Assembly (NCBI GenBank): GCA_029776595.1
Contig: JAKOSX010000005.1
Location: forward strand, 1 to 40,682
Source of the DNA: Bacillota bacterium
Lineage (GTDB): Bacteria > Bacillota > UBA4882 > UBA8346
DNA length: 40,682 nucleotides
Reading direction: 5' to 3'
Shown here in pieces: positions 3,706-14,755 of this stretch. The notes below the pieces were generated by a model. It was not told where the DNA came from and made no database searches. It saw only the letters and a program-made list of their open reading frames with translations. Position numbers and translations under genes: made by a program. Position 1 is the first letter of the stretch. Each line of letters starts with the position of its first letter.

Positions 3706-3808
3706 GGTATGAAACTACAGTTGACAGTTCTTCTTTTTTCGGGTACACAGTTCCCAGTGCACAGTGTACAGCTTCATCCTGATATGAAGCCCTAGGTCTT
3801 GAGTCCTA
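3706..3808. repeat. Dispersed intergenic element, copy A
   Basis: GGTATGAAACTACAGTTGACAGTTC...CGGGTACACAGT...CAGTGCACAGTG...AGCTTCATCCTGATATGAAGCCCTAGGTCTTGAGTCCTAGGT; shares ordered blocks with 13411-13539. Confidence 0.8.
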
Positions 3809-4543
3809 GGTAATTTTCACCAACACCACGCCCAATCCAAAGCCAATGATAAACCCAAAGCCGGTCCAAAGAAGACCGGCGATTTTTTTGGCCATGGGCA
3901 GCAACTCTTGAATCACCAGAAAAATCATGGCCCCTCCGGCAAATCCCAACGCCAGCGAAGCCGCCCATCCCGAAATCTGTCCAACGAAAGCCCCGATCAT
4001 GGCTCCCACCGCCATTGGAACTTCAACCAGAAACAAGGCAACCACAATTTTGAAAAACCGGACTTTGCCCAGTTTCAAAGCGGAAGCCATGACCATCCCC
4101 TCCGGAATATTATGAAGGGCCATCAAAGCGCCAAGTCCGCCCCAATATTGAATATGAGGATTGGCAATGAACATGGTTCCGAGGGCGACCCCTTCCGGAA
4201 AATTATGCGTTCCGATACCCATCCCCATGAGCAGTCCCAGCTTGGTGCTTTTGGAAAAGCGCCGCCGTGCATACCAGGGAAACAAGCGCATCATGGCCTC
4301 AAAATAGCGGATTATGATAACCCCCAGCCCCGTACCGAGAAGGGCCGGCATCCACCCTCCGTAGTACAAAGCTTCAGGCCATAAATCCAGCAAAACCACT
4401 GCCACCATGATTCCTCCGGAGAAGCCCATTAATCCGCTTTGTTTAACCGGGCCTTCTCCGAACCGGTAAATAACCAATCCCCCGAAAACCGTTCCGGAAA
4501 TGCCCACTAAGAACCCGATTACCGCAGCCAATAGAATATCCAT
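3806..4543 (-). CDS. ZIP family metal transporter
   Basis: 245 aa polytopic; GTHNFPEGVALGTMF and ALHNIPEGMVMASALK motifs typical of ZIP permeases. Confidence 0.88.
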   Translation of the reverse strand: MDILLAAVIGFLVGISGTVFGGLVIYRFGEGPVKQSGLMGFSGGIMVAVVLLDLWPEALYYGGWMPALLGTGLGVIIIRYFEAMMRLFPWYARRRFSKSTKLGLLMGMGIGTHNFPEGVALGTMFIANPHIQYWGGLGALMALHNIPEGMVMASALKLGKVRFFKIVVALFLVEVPMAVGAMIGAFVGQISGWAASLALGFAGGAMIFLVIQELLPMAKKIAGLLWTGFGFIIGFGLGVVLVKIT

Positions 4544-8580: not shown

Positions 8581-8609
8581 AGACCTCCGTCAGTACAAAC
8601 CTTGGTATA

Positions 8610-8705
8610 ATTGACAATAGGTTCACGGTTCACGGCACACAATTCACAAACAACCAGTTACTGAAATCATGTACTGTGCACTGTGTACCATGTACCACCC
8701 GACTT
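8610..8705. repeat. Dispersed intergenic element, copy D (diverged)
   Basis: TTGACAATAGGTTCACGGTTCACGGCACACAATTCACA...GTACTGTGCACTGTGTACCATGTACC. Confidence 0.5.
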
Positions 8706-8722
8706 CACTTTTAAGCCTGTTA

Positions 8723-11280: not shown

Positions 11281-12765
11281 TCAAGCGCATTGCAATTGTT
11301 TGCGGAACCAGTCGCCGGAAACTTTCTCTTCTTCCAGCAAAACGTCGCAGATTTTCCGGATGAACGGTTCTTTATCGCGTAAAATATTTCTCACGCGGGT
11401 TTGCTGTTCTTCCAAAATCTCTTTTAAAGCTTCATAAATCCGTTCCTTACCGACCAAATCTTCCTGGACAATTCCCAATTTGGACAGGCCGGTTAAAATC
11501 AGCTGTTTGCCGATGGAAGTCGCCTGTTCAAAATCATTGGAAGCCCCGGTACTCCAGTTATGATAGATCAATTCTTCAGCCAAAGCACCACCCAGGCATA
11601 TGGCTATCTGATCTTCAAGATACCCTTTGGTATACAGATATTGCTCCTGTTCTTGGGCTTGGCGCATGAATCCCAGGGCTTTGCCTCTGGGGATCACCGT
11701 CAAAGTGGCCACCGAGCCTGGTCGGACCGTTTCACTGACCAATGCATGTCCGATTTCGTGGACGGCAACCCGTGTCAATTCTTCCCGGTCCACTTTGCGT
11801 TCGAGTTTCTCCCCGAGCATCACTTTGTCAATGGCTTCCCGGATATCATCCATCTCAATCTGGGTCCGTTCTTTCCGATAAGCCAAGATGGCCGCTTCAT
11901 TGATGAGGGACTCCAGATGCGCTCCTGAAAATCCAAAGGTGTCTTTGGCCACTTCATCCAGATCAACTCCGGCAGCCAAAGGTTTTCCTTTCGCGTGAAT
12001 GTTCAGAATATGCATCCGTCCTTCCCTGTCGGGAAGATCCACTTTCACCTGGCGGTCGAACCGCCCCGGCCGAAGGATGGCCGGATCAAGCATATCCGCC
12101 CGATTCGTCGCGGCAATCACCACAATATTCACGCTCTCCTCGGGCTTAATCCCGTCCATCTCCACCAACAACTGGTTCAATGTCTGGTCATATTCCAAAT
12201 GGGAGCTGTGACTGCCCCGTTTTCCGGCGATAATTTCAATTTCATCAATGAAAATGATGGCACTTTGTTTATTCATTTTCGTTGCAAGTTGCCGGGCTTT
12301 ATTGAACAATTGCCGTACCCTTTGGGCACCCACACCGGCATAGAGCTCGACAAATTCGCTTCCGGAGGCCGATACGAACACCGAATCGGTATAATTGGCC
12401 GCAGCCTTAGCCAACAGCGTCTTTCCGGTTCCGGGCGGTCCGGTCAAGAGAATCCCTTTAAGCGGCCGGATCCCCAACTGTTGCACGGTTTCCCGGTCTC
12501 GCACAAAATCCAGAGCTTCGAGAAGCTCCCGTTTGGCAACTTCCTGCCCTCCGATGTCGTCAAATCGGACGCCGGTATCGACCCGCCCCGCGGACGGATT
12601 GCCGACGAATTCAAACTGATTGCCCATTTTGCCCTGAGTGAGCAAATAAAGAACGAGCAACGCCCCGCCGATTAGGAAAAGAGGCGTCAGATCAATTCCC
12701 CGGCTGGTTAAAAATACCGCCGTTCCAAGAGTTATACCAATTAAAAGCTCACGATAACGCATCAT
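11281..12765 (-). CDS. Short FtsH-like AAA+ zinc metalloprotease
   Basis: 494 aa; GPPGTGKTLLAKA, FIDEIEII, ATNRADMLDPAILRPGRFDRQ, HEIGHAL zinc motif; only a short N-terminal membrane segment. Confidence 0.9.
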   Translation of the reverse strand: MMRYRELLIGITLGTAVFLTSRGIDLTPLFLIGGALLVLYLLTQGKMGNQFEFVGNPSAGRVDTGVRFDDIGGQEVAKRELLEALDFVRDRETVQQLGIRPLKGILLTGPPGTGKTLLAKAAANYTDSVFVSASGSEFVELYAGVGAQRVRQLFNKARQLATKMNKQSAIIFIDEIEIIAGKRGSHSSHLEYDQTLNQLLVEMDGIKPEESVNIVVIAATNRADMLDPAILRPGRFDRQVKVDLPDREGRMHILNIHAKGKPLAAGVDLDEVAKDTFGFSGAHLESLINEAAILAYRKERTQIEMDDIREAIDKVMLGEKLERKVDREELTRVAVHEIGHALVSETVRPGSVATLTVIPRGKALGFMRQAQEQEQYLYTKGYLEDQIAICLGGALAEELIYHNWSTGASNDFEQATSIGKQLILTGLSKLGIVQEDLVGKERIYEALKEILEEQQTRVRNILRDKEPFIRKICDVLLEEEKVSGDWFRKQLQCA

Positions 12766-13325
12766 ATGGAACCACCTCCCGAACCCGTATCATTGAACGT
12801 CACCCAACGGGACGTCCGGGGGACGGCTTGGTACAGAAAATGGGAACCTTCTTCAAGCTGAACATAGACATATTCTTCAGTTAAATAAACCTTGCTTGTC
12901 ACGCCATTCCCCTTCAAATTATCCAAAGCGGATTTCAACTGGATGTAATGGCCGGAAGCCAATGCTTCTTCCAGATAAAACGATAGGTCGTAATGAACTT
13001 TTTCGAGGCGCTGGTTGGGATTGCTTTGTATCACAAACGATGTCACCGGTTTATGATGATACCGTTCGACTTTCGCCTTAACAAACTCCAATAATTCCTT
13101 AAGATCATCCGTCTGTTTTAACGTCAGTTCAACCGCAACTCCGTTCTCAACCGGTCGCACCGCAAAATGCCGGATTTGACCCTTACTCAAAATCTCCTTC
13201 TGAAGTGGTTCGTTAACTTTCCATTTTGTATTTAACGCCTGCCCGCCGAATAAAAGTGCCAGCGTACAAGCGAAAGCGGCCACTACCATCCACGTCTGAA
13301 GATTTTTAAAATACTTCATCGGCAT
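12762..13325 (-). CDS. Membrane-anchored protein of unknown function, coupled to the FtsH-like gene
   Basis: 187 aa, one N-terminal TM (TWMVVAAFACTLALLFGG); 4-nt ATGA overlap with the FtsH-like start. Confidence 0.75.
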   Translation of the reverse strand: MPMKYFKNLQTWMVVAAFACTLALLFGGQALNTKWKVNEPLQKEILSKGQIRHFAVRPVENGVAVELTLKQTDDLKELLEFVKAKVERYHHKPVTSFVIQSNPNQRLEKVHYDLSFYLEEALASGHYIQLKSALDNLKGNGVTSKVYLTEEYVYVQLEEGSHFLYQAVPRTSRWVTFNDTGSGGGSI

Positions 13326-13367: not shown

Positions 13368-13386
13368 ATCGCCTTGTATAGGCGAT
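13368..13386 (-). terminator. Intrinsic terminator downstream of the 13709..14755 gene
   Basis: ATCGCCT-TGTAT-AGGCGAT followed by a T-run on the minus strand. Confidence 0.65.
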
Positions 13387-13404: not shown

Positions 13405-13708
13405 GGTATGAGGCGTGTTATAGTTGACATTTTACACTTGACAGTGGACAGTTCTTTCCCGGGTACACAGTACATAGTTCACGGTGCACAGTGCATAGCT
13501 GCATCCTAATATAAGGTCCTAGGTCTCGGGTACTAGGTCCCAGGTTCTGGGTTATGGAAGGAACGCTAACGCGTTCCTTCCTAGAACCAGTGCCTAGCAC
13601 CTAACACCTAGAACCCAATGCCATTTTTCCTTTACACTTTAAAACTGTCAACTGTCCCAACTGTCAACTGTAAACTAACTATTAGACCCAGGGCCTATTA
13701 CCCAGTCC
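13405..13708. repeat. Dispersed intergenic element copy B within a ~300-bp compound palindrome
   Basis: Left: TTGACAGTGGACAGTT...CGGGTACACAGT...CCTAGGT...CTAGGTCCCAGGTT; centre GGAAGGAACGC-TAAC-GCGTTCCTTCC (13557-13582); right: AACCAGTGCCTAGCACCTAACACCTAG...AACTGTCAACTGTCCCAACTGTCAACTGT. Confidence 0.85.
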
Positions 13709-14755
13709 CTATTGAATAACCGGCAGACGTTTCTCCTTGAGTACCTGATTCAATAATGTCAAATCATAGATCTTCTCCAAATGGGGTTTATCTTTTCCCA
13801 AAAAACCCAGGCGGTAAGCACGGTCCGCTGAGATGAAGAGGGTCTTCATTGCCGGATCCCAGGTTAACTCAAACCGGCTAAACGCCTGTTTGATGATGTT
13901 CTCCGGCAGAGAAGCACTGGTAATGGCATGCAGCTCCCGGTTTAACATTTTTTGATAACGCTCCGGATCCCCATTGATGCGTTGGGTTAATTCCACATGA
14001 GCTTTCAACCATTTCTTGACCAGCCCGGGATAATTCTTCAGAAATTTCTGGGACACGATAATATTGGCGGTAACAAACTGCCCTTTATCCCATAAACTGC
14101 GTTCATCCACATAGATCACGCCCCGGGCCTCCGCGACCAGACGGCTGACCCATGGTTCTACGGTCCATGCGCCGTCGATCTCTTTCCGTTGCAAAAGATT
14201 CAATTGATCCGGATTGGGCACCGGTAAAACATGGACTGTCCCGCCTTGCTGCACCGGTTTCAGTCCATGGGACATCAGATAATATCGTAAAGCCACATCC
14301 TGGGTGTTTCCTATCTGCGGTGAGGCCAGTTTCAGGCCGCTCAATTGCTTGGGCGACGTGATCCTCAGATCGGAACGCAATACCAGCGAAGCTCCGCCGC
14401 TGGCCGCACCGGCCACAATCTTCAGCAGTTTGCCCTGCGTCCGGATATATCCGTTGATGGCCGGATTTGGCCCGATATAGGCCAAATCCAGATGCCCCGC
14501 CATCATGGCTTCGATGACCGACGGACCCGCATTAAAAATATATTTTTTTACGGCCACGCCCGAACCCAAAGCCTTATGAAACGTCCCGTCGGCCATACCG
14601 ATAACCGCTTGGGCATGGGTAATATTGGGGAAATACCCCACCTTCATCTCCTGTCCGGCCAGACCGGAAGAGAGCGCCAACCACCCCATCCCCGTCAGCA
14701 GCAACCATCCAATGAGCCATTGACGCACCCTGTTTCCCCCCTTAGCATTAGTCAC
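13709..14755 (-). CDS. ABC transporter substrate-binding protein, SsuA/NrtA/TauA-like
   Basis: 348 aa, signal peptide, MKVGYFPNITHAQAVIGMADGTF...AGHLDLAYIGPNPAINGYI...; no permease/ATPase adjacent. Confidence 0.82.
   Translation of the reverse strand: MTNAKGGNRVRQWLIGWLLLTGMGWLALSSGLAGQEMKVGYFPNITHAQAVIGMADGTFHKALGSGVAVKKYIFNAGPSVIEAMMAGHLDLAYIGPNPAINGYIRTQGKLLKIVAGAASGGASLVLRSDLRITSPKQLSGLKLASPQIGNTQDVALRYYLMSHGLKPVQQGGTVHVLPVPNPDQLNLLQRKEIDGAWTVEPWVSRLVAEARGVIYVDERSLWDKGQFVTANIIVSQKFLKNYPGLVKKWLKAHVELTQRINGDPERYQKMLNRELHAITSASLPENIIKQAFSRFELTWDPAMKTLFISADRAYRLGFLGKDKPHLEKIYDLTLLNQVLKEKRLPVIQ

Follow-up and report, generated by a model that had tools for sequence, protein, structure and literature searches.

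The interval 13405-13708 of the window, the whole analysed stretch of 40,682 nucleotides, sits between two minus-strand genes and holds an imperfect palindrome whose parts are given in Table 1. Neighboring the 187-aa protein gene is a gene for an FtsH-like AAA protease (11281-12765), whose score falls short of the FtsH cut-off and which has no counterpart to the N-terminal portion of the model (the match starts at model position 115); its 187-aa partner is conserved in the family. Adjoining the element, the minus strand carries at 13368-13386 a terminator-like stem with a T-tract, which is common to the sister species.

Table 1. Position and composition of the palindromic element, its flanking genes and the related arrays of the window.
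Feature	Position	Strand	Basis or remark
187-aa protein gene	12762-13325	-	no Pfam or NCBIfam match
Palindromic element, imperfect and nested	13422-13671		intergenic, non-coding; around an exact 11-bp hairpin
Outer left arm, A words (GTTGACA-type heptamers)	13422-13452	+	sequence; period-7 segment 13415-13503
Left arm, B words (GTNCACA-type heptamers)	13463-13498	+	sequence; period-7 segment 13415-13503
Linker CTGCATCCTAATATAAGG, variant of CTTCATCCTGATATGAGG	13499-13516	+	
Inner left arm, C words (GGTNCTR-type heptamers)	13515-13555	+	period-7 segment 13513-13558; alignment of copies
Core hairpin GGAAGGAACGC-TAAC-GCGTTCCTTCC	13556-13581	unstranded	repeat search, copy alignment, hairpin inspection
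Inner right arm, reverse-complement C words (ACCTAGN-type)	13582-13617	-	period-7 segment 13580-13679
Linker ATGCCATTTTTCCTTTACACTTTAA, variant of GATGCCATTTTCCCTTTACACTTTGG	13618-13642	+	
Outer right arm, reverse-complement A words (AACTGTC-type)	13643-13671	-	sequence; period-7 segment 13580-13679
Sulfonate-type ABC substrate-binding protein gene	13709-14755	-	
Half copy: left-arm A, B and C words, no hairpin or right arm	about 3711-3811	+	75% identity to query 37-134
Another heptamer pair, simpler and convergent, lacking the core hairpin: forward B words followed by their reverse complement	8606-8707	unstranded	period-7 segments 8606-8657 and 8661-8707

Heptamer arms and hairpin core

The arms consist of degenerate 7-bp tandem units of several word types (e.g. 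GTTGACA, GTNCACA and GGTNCTR). This phased tandem nature is absent from the preliminary description of this DNA, although all the words quoted there are present in the sequence. Its 11-bp hairpin stem is exact, but had been placed one base too far to the right (13557-13582). The mirrored order of words that it proposed is imperfect: the GTNCACA block at 13463-13498 lacks a complementary counterpart on the right. In 199 kb of the window's own genome, we counted 23 intergenic segments with a period of 7, compared with 0-3 at other non-harmonic periods, and a single period-7 segment in coding sequence. Positions within the units are partly free, with an entropy of 1.78 bits at the N of GTNCACA and of 1.88 at the N of GGTNCTR, the others being kept.

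A repeat search extended the hairpin arms to 38 nt (13529-13566 and 13571-13608, 74% complementary). The interval can form a long imperfect stem-loop or cruciform, as had been proposed, and the predicted stability is far above chance: the DNA fold of the plus strand of 13405-13708 reached -49.6 kcal/mol vs. -31.7 +/- 3.6 for shuffled sequences (z -4.9), the RNA fold of the minus strand -123.8 vs. -87.5 +/- 5.7 (z -6.4), and none of 100 shuffles folded as well, either as DNA or as RNA. The window gave no Rfam match above the gathering score. An intrinsic terminator was considered and rejected, given that a T-tract stands beside the stem in only 4 and 3 of 76 elements and that the terminator-like site of this gap lies elsewhere.

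Alignment of copies gave a family core of the form GGAACGC, 2-6 variable nucleotides, GCGTTCC. Each stem pair is intact in about 85-95% of the hairpins (n = 84), and the loops, 2-6 nt long, comprise more than 35 different sequences. Thus the stem is the conserved part while loops and arms are variable, the reverse of the varying stem and conserved arms that the preliminary description had suggested looking for. Six complementary two-sided stem changes were found in the 84 hairpins, against an expectation of about 2.4 double changes, whatever their kind, for independent sides; we take this weak signal of covariation as suggestive only, because the copies have a common origin and the search pattern capped the number of changes on either side. 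An RNAalifold consensus of 28 copies contained no compensatory pairs.

Copies, polarity and comparison with related genomes

The element is one copy of a dispersed, non-coding, intergenic fold-back repeat. BLAST with the interval produced 49 matches in the window's own genome (G000, a 2.05-Mb draft). A covariance model built from 28 copies matched 129 times in this genome and 37 times in a same-genus genome, the sister (G001), both strands being counted; as the element is palindromic, most sites count twice in this search. The model had no match in 8 other genomes of the same family or in the rest of the 40 relatives. Inspection of the hairpins reduced these numbers to about 60 sites in the own genome and about 17 in the sister; the former count starts from 67 hairpins with a positive arm score, a few of which, in coding sequence, were taken as chance. 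A search of GTDB contigs with the exact hairpin pattern returned only two matches, in Streptomyces and Taibaiella, and these were also judged to be chance. Gaps with copies comprise 42 tandem, 8 convergent and 3 divergent ones (background: 55, 7, and 12, respectively). The half copy of the window matches the left half only, with hairpin and right arm missing, as the preliminary description had it. From this a full element made of two inverted half-units had been suggested; full and half elements are indeed both common in the genome, yet the family is more than a pair of inverted halves with a set sequence, and the heptamer blocks are modular.

The order and number of the blocks vary by site (ABC|ca, CFde, DEBfc, and EFcb), while their polarity never does. 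Among word pairs within one gap (1.05 Mb sampled, both species), 45 in 20 clusters were arranged forward-then-reverse and none reverse-then-forward; the polarity labels of the words were chosen after inspection of the data, each label being one free choice against many clusters. The G-rich strand is always met first when reading inward from either flanking gene. Where a gap holds arrays, GC skew is positive in its left part and turns negative in its right part, and this skew is absent in gaps without arrays; therefore, it does not reflect general composition. Junctions between word blocks are conserved in both species (loci L016, L008, L195, L180, and L173). F and A words, for instance, are joined by CAGAAG-CTTTAAAAT-CA-GTTGACAG, and GGCATGA-type words are linked to A words by GTATA. 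Word blocks seem to travel together with their junctions.

At the window locus the sister has the same flanking genes, with about 80-84% protein identity. The first ~90 bp of the gap are common to both species, followed in the sister by other heptamer words without such a hairpin. This sister gap (L149:1084-1497) contains a small palindrome of another kind, CCTCACCCCGGCCCTCTCCGAAAGGAGAGAGATGA, and variants of this palindrome are present in further sister gaps (orthologues of L062 and L073). In two other genomes of the same family the gap at this locus is shorter and has no arrays. Period-7 arrays were found in 12 of 16 orthologous sister gaps, as opposed to 28 of 222 other gaps comparable in length (p 1e-7; background 13%), and the hairpin in 5 of 16 vs. 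7 of 222 (p 4e-4). In these orthologous arrays the hairpin stems agree, whereas loops and arms differ and are not alignable.

Results showed that copies have also spread, in the window's lineage after the split, because a composite of ~230 bp with two linkers occurs at at least 11 sites of the own genome and at none in the sampled sister. Its linkers, of the CTTCATCCTGATATGAGG type (11 copies) and the GATGCCATTTTCCCTTTACACTTTGG type (8 copies), are absent from 0.85 Mb of sampled sister sequence and from the sister's element loci. The ends of the composite bear inverted A words. We saw no target-site duplication or clean empty site, the sister being too distant for this comparison.

The pattern of three C units was found in 3 of 300 genomes of the phylum, namely the two of this genus and G186, a member of another family. 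G186 contains 211 copies of CTAGTTGCTAGTT (0 for the backwards control), and its arrays were forward-then-reverse in 14 cases (8 from loci that were read and 6 from a table of places) and the opposite in none, around centres that are unrelated. Inverted symmetry, whose loss in relatives would have spoken against the preliminary description, is thus kept in both the sister and G186. The inverted arms of G186 (CTAGTTG/AGGTGCT; loci L199, L205, L211, and L215) are near-perfect and the centres variable, and the genome has more than 200 exact doublets; this heptamer system looks younger and is suited to study.

Known repeat systems and mobility genes

The nearest known counterpart is the G-rich heptamer repeat, with convergent pairs, described from Xanthomonas and Nostoc (Rehm et al., 2015, PMC4692102). 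There the intergenic units are GGGAATC / GGGGA(C/T)T with free positions (GGGANTN), convergent pairs number 70 and 75 in two Xanthomonas genomes, few arrays lie between divergent genes, and sister species keep repeats in the same gaps with different length and sequence. The family described here has in common with these repeats the degenerate 7-bp tandem units with fixed and free positions, the convergent pairs whose G-rich strand leads into the gap, and the gaps that sister species keep while the sequence varies. However, its units are GTTGACA, GTNCACA, GGTNCTR, etc., and therefore we regard it as the same kind of repeat and not as that named one. At least six word types are combined here in one gap, while the same source deals with one per genome; no core hairpin is reported in its available portion for the Xanthomonas and Nostoc heptamers, whereas a conserved one stands at or near the centre here. 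As a rule, our family is also without quadruplex-type G runs, and its hosts are unrelated to those of PMC4692102. The combination of many words with a REP-like hairpin core looks new compared with the facing runs of Xanthomonas in that source.

REP and REPIN sequences with their RAYT (Bertels and Rainey, 2011, PMC3116915; Di Nocera et al., 2013, PMC3733652) share with the family a short extragenic palindrome in dozens of copies, specific to a species or genus, as well as larger fold-back units and a location mostly in tandem and convergent gaps nearer the 3′ ends of genes. They differ by their GTAG or CGTC tag, whereas the family has no constant tag and no RAYT, and its arms are period-7 tandem arrays. 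At the foot of the stem, GGTA precedes GGA in 20 of 76 elements, the others having GGAA, GGAG, GGAT and others. Membership in REP/REPIN-RAYT was rejected on the lack of PF01797 and of a constant GTAG or CGTC tag. TAACTGA heptamers of Beggiatoaceae, cyanobacteria and Bacteroidetes (MacGregor, 2015, PMC4679880) and the heptanucleotide elements of Geobacter metallireducens (PMC2700814) are 7-bp direct repeats as well, mostly intergenic and many per genome. The TAACTGA sets run in direct orientation, apart from a single inverted case, and lie just before start codons, whereas inverted pairs are the rule in the family studied here.

Mobility genes were looked for with profile models. The Y1/RAYT transposase (PF01797) was absent from the own genome, the sister and G186, while control genomes gave matches. 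Transposases of the IS110 (PF02371) and DDE_Tnp_1 (PF01609) families and reverse transcriptase (PF00078) were absent from the own genome and the sister, the latter being 99% complete. A transposase of a family other than Y1, IS110 and DDE_Tnp_1 is possible.

Possible origin and role of the repeat

We consider it about an even chance (roughly 50%) that this fold-back repeat, with its G-rich 7-bp arms converging on a conserved hairpin, persists by turnover of units in place and by fold-back copying between gaps. This reading is favored because no Y1, IS110, DDE_Tnp_1 or reverse transcriptase gene was found. Both spread and turnover are observed; for the enzymology of unit turnover and copying we infer the following steps. 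Units would be gained and lost through slippage and unequal exchange inside the 7-bp arrays. Inversion of the arms relative to each other would let single-stranded DNA at a replication fork, or a transcript, fold back on itself. Template switching or ectopic conversion between folded copies would then renew the arms and move whole copies to other gaps, so that no dedicated transposase of the tested families would be needed, and the conserved stem would be the part required to pair. Within 3′ untranslated and intercistronic regions the copies are most likely hairpins that are passive or of slight use to the cell. Eukaryotic fold-back (FB) transposons have long inverted repeats built of short tandem units; compared with these, the window element is far smaller and without observed transposition or target-site duplication.

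By themselves, slippage and fold-back offer no obvious reason for the G-rich strand always leading, or for at least six word types sharing one polarity, and no model accounts well for so strict a polarity. A classical MITE or fold-back transposon, in which the heptamer blocks would be terminal inverted repeats made of tandem transposase sites, a transposase would copy the element in trans and nested insertions would fall at the hairpin centre, is possible but doubtful. The nested inverted architecture and the composite with defined A-word ends at its at least 11 sites in one lineage would fit such a history; however, Y1, IS110 and DDE_Tnp_1 genes are absent from the own genome and the sister, block order and ends vary, no target-site duplication was seen, and the same gaps carry arrays in both species in place of present/absent sites. 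Somewhat less probable, in our view, is an RNA element whose long hairpin protects or ends mRNAs between genes, as a REP-like 3′ stabilizer or an attenuator. Consistent with this are the RNA fold (z -6.4), the element centre, which in 36 of 51 tandem gaps lies closer to the stop codon upstream than to the start codon downstream, and the low share of divergent gaps (3/53 vs. 12/74 in the background). On the other hand, the hairpins do not follow the direction of transcription (15 same, 19 opposite, p 0.61), T-tracts beside the hairpin are as rare as 4 and 3 of 76, the gap of the window has its separate terminator-like site at 13368-13386, and a need for pairing leaves the strict polarity unexplained.

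A role of the G-rich heptamers at gene borders as DNA structures or as arrays that bind protein, whether G-quadruplex-like or phased sites, with selection keeping their orientation with respect to genes, is improbable. That orientation is constant here, with the same preference reported for Xanthomonas and Nostoc (PMC4692102), and units such as GTNCACA and GGTNCTR combine fixed positions with a free N. Yet the words differ between gaps and mostly have no GGG runs of the kind a quadruplex needs. To our knowledge, no protein binding these heptamer arrays has been described. If a telomerase-like enzyme added G-rich heptamers to the two 3′ ends of a break and these were then joined, the outcome would resemble fused telomeres, namely head-to-head arrays. 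The G-rich strand does lie 5′ of the centre in every case here, and one unit position is free; nevertheless, we find this origin hardly credible, since PF00078 is absent from the own genome and the 99% complete sister and a conserved hairpin occupies the centre.

Beyond the fold-back reading, we hold as a speculative and rather unlikely idea that a general and so far undescribed process, at work in unrelated bacteria, lays down or preserves G-rich 7-bp units, always pointing inward from the ends of genes, which would turn each affected gap into a palindrome with one centre, marked by the conserved hairpin. Among long-unit tandem repeats, those of heptamers are over-represented in many bacteria (PMC4692102, PMC4679880). 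The convergent polarity known from Xanthomonas (PMC4692102) recurs here in another two families whose words are different, and one of these families has a conserved hairpin core as well. This recurrent polarity is a rule that any model has to meet, whether it invokes slippage, fold-back template switching, transposition or selection on gene ends, and the kept stem with its free loop offers a handle for experiment.
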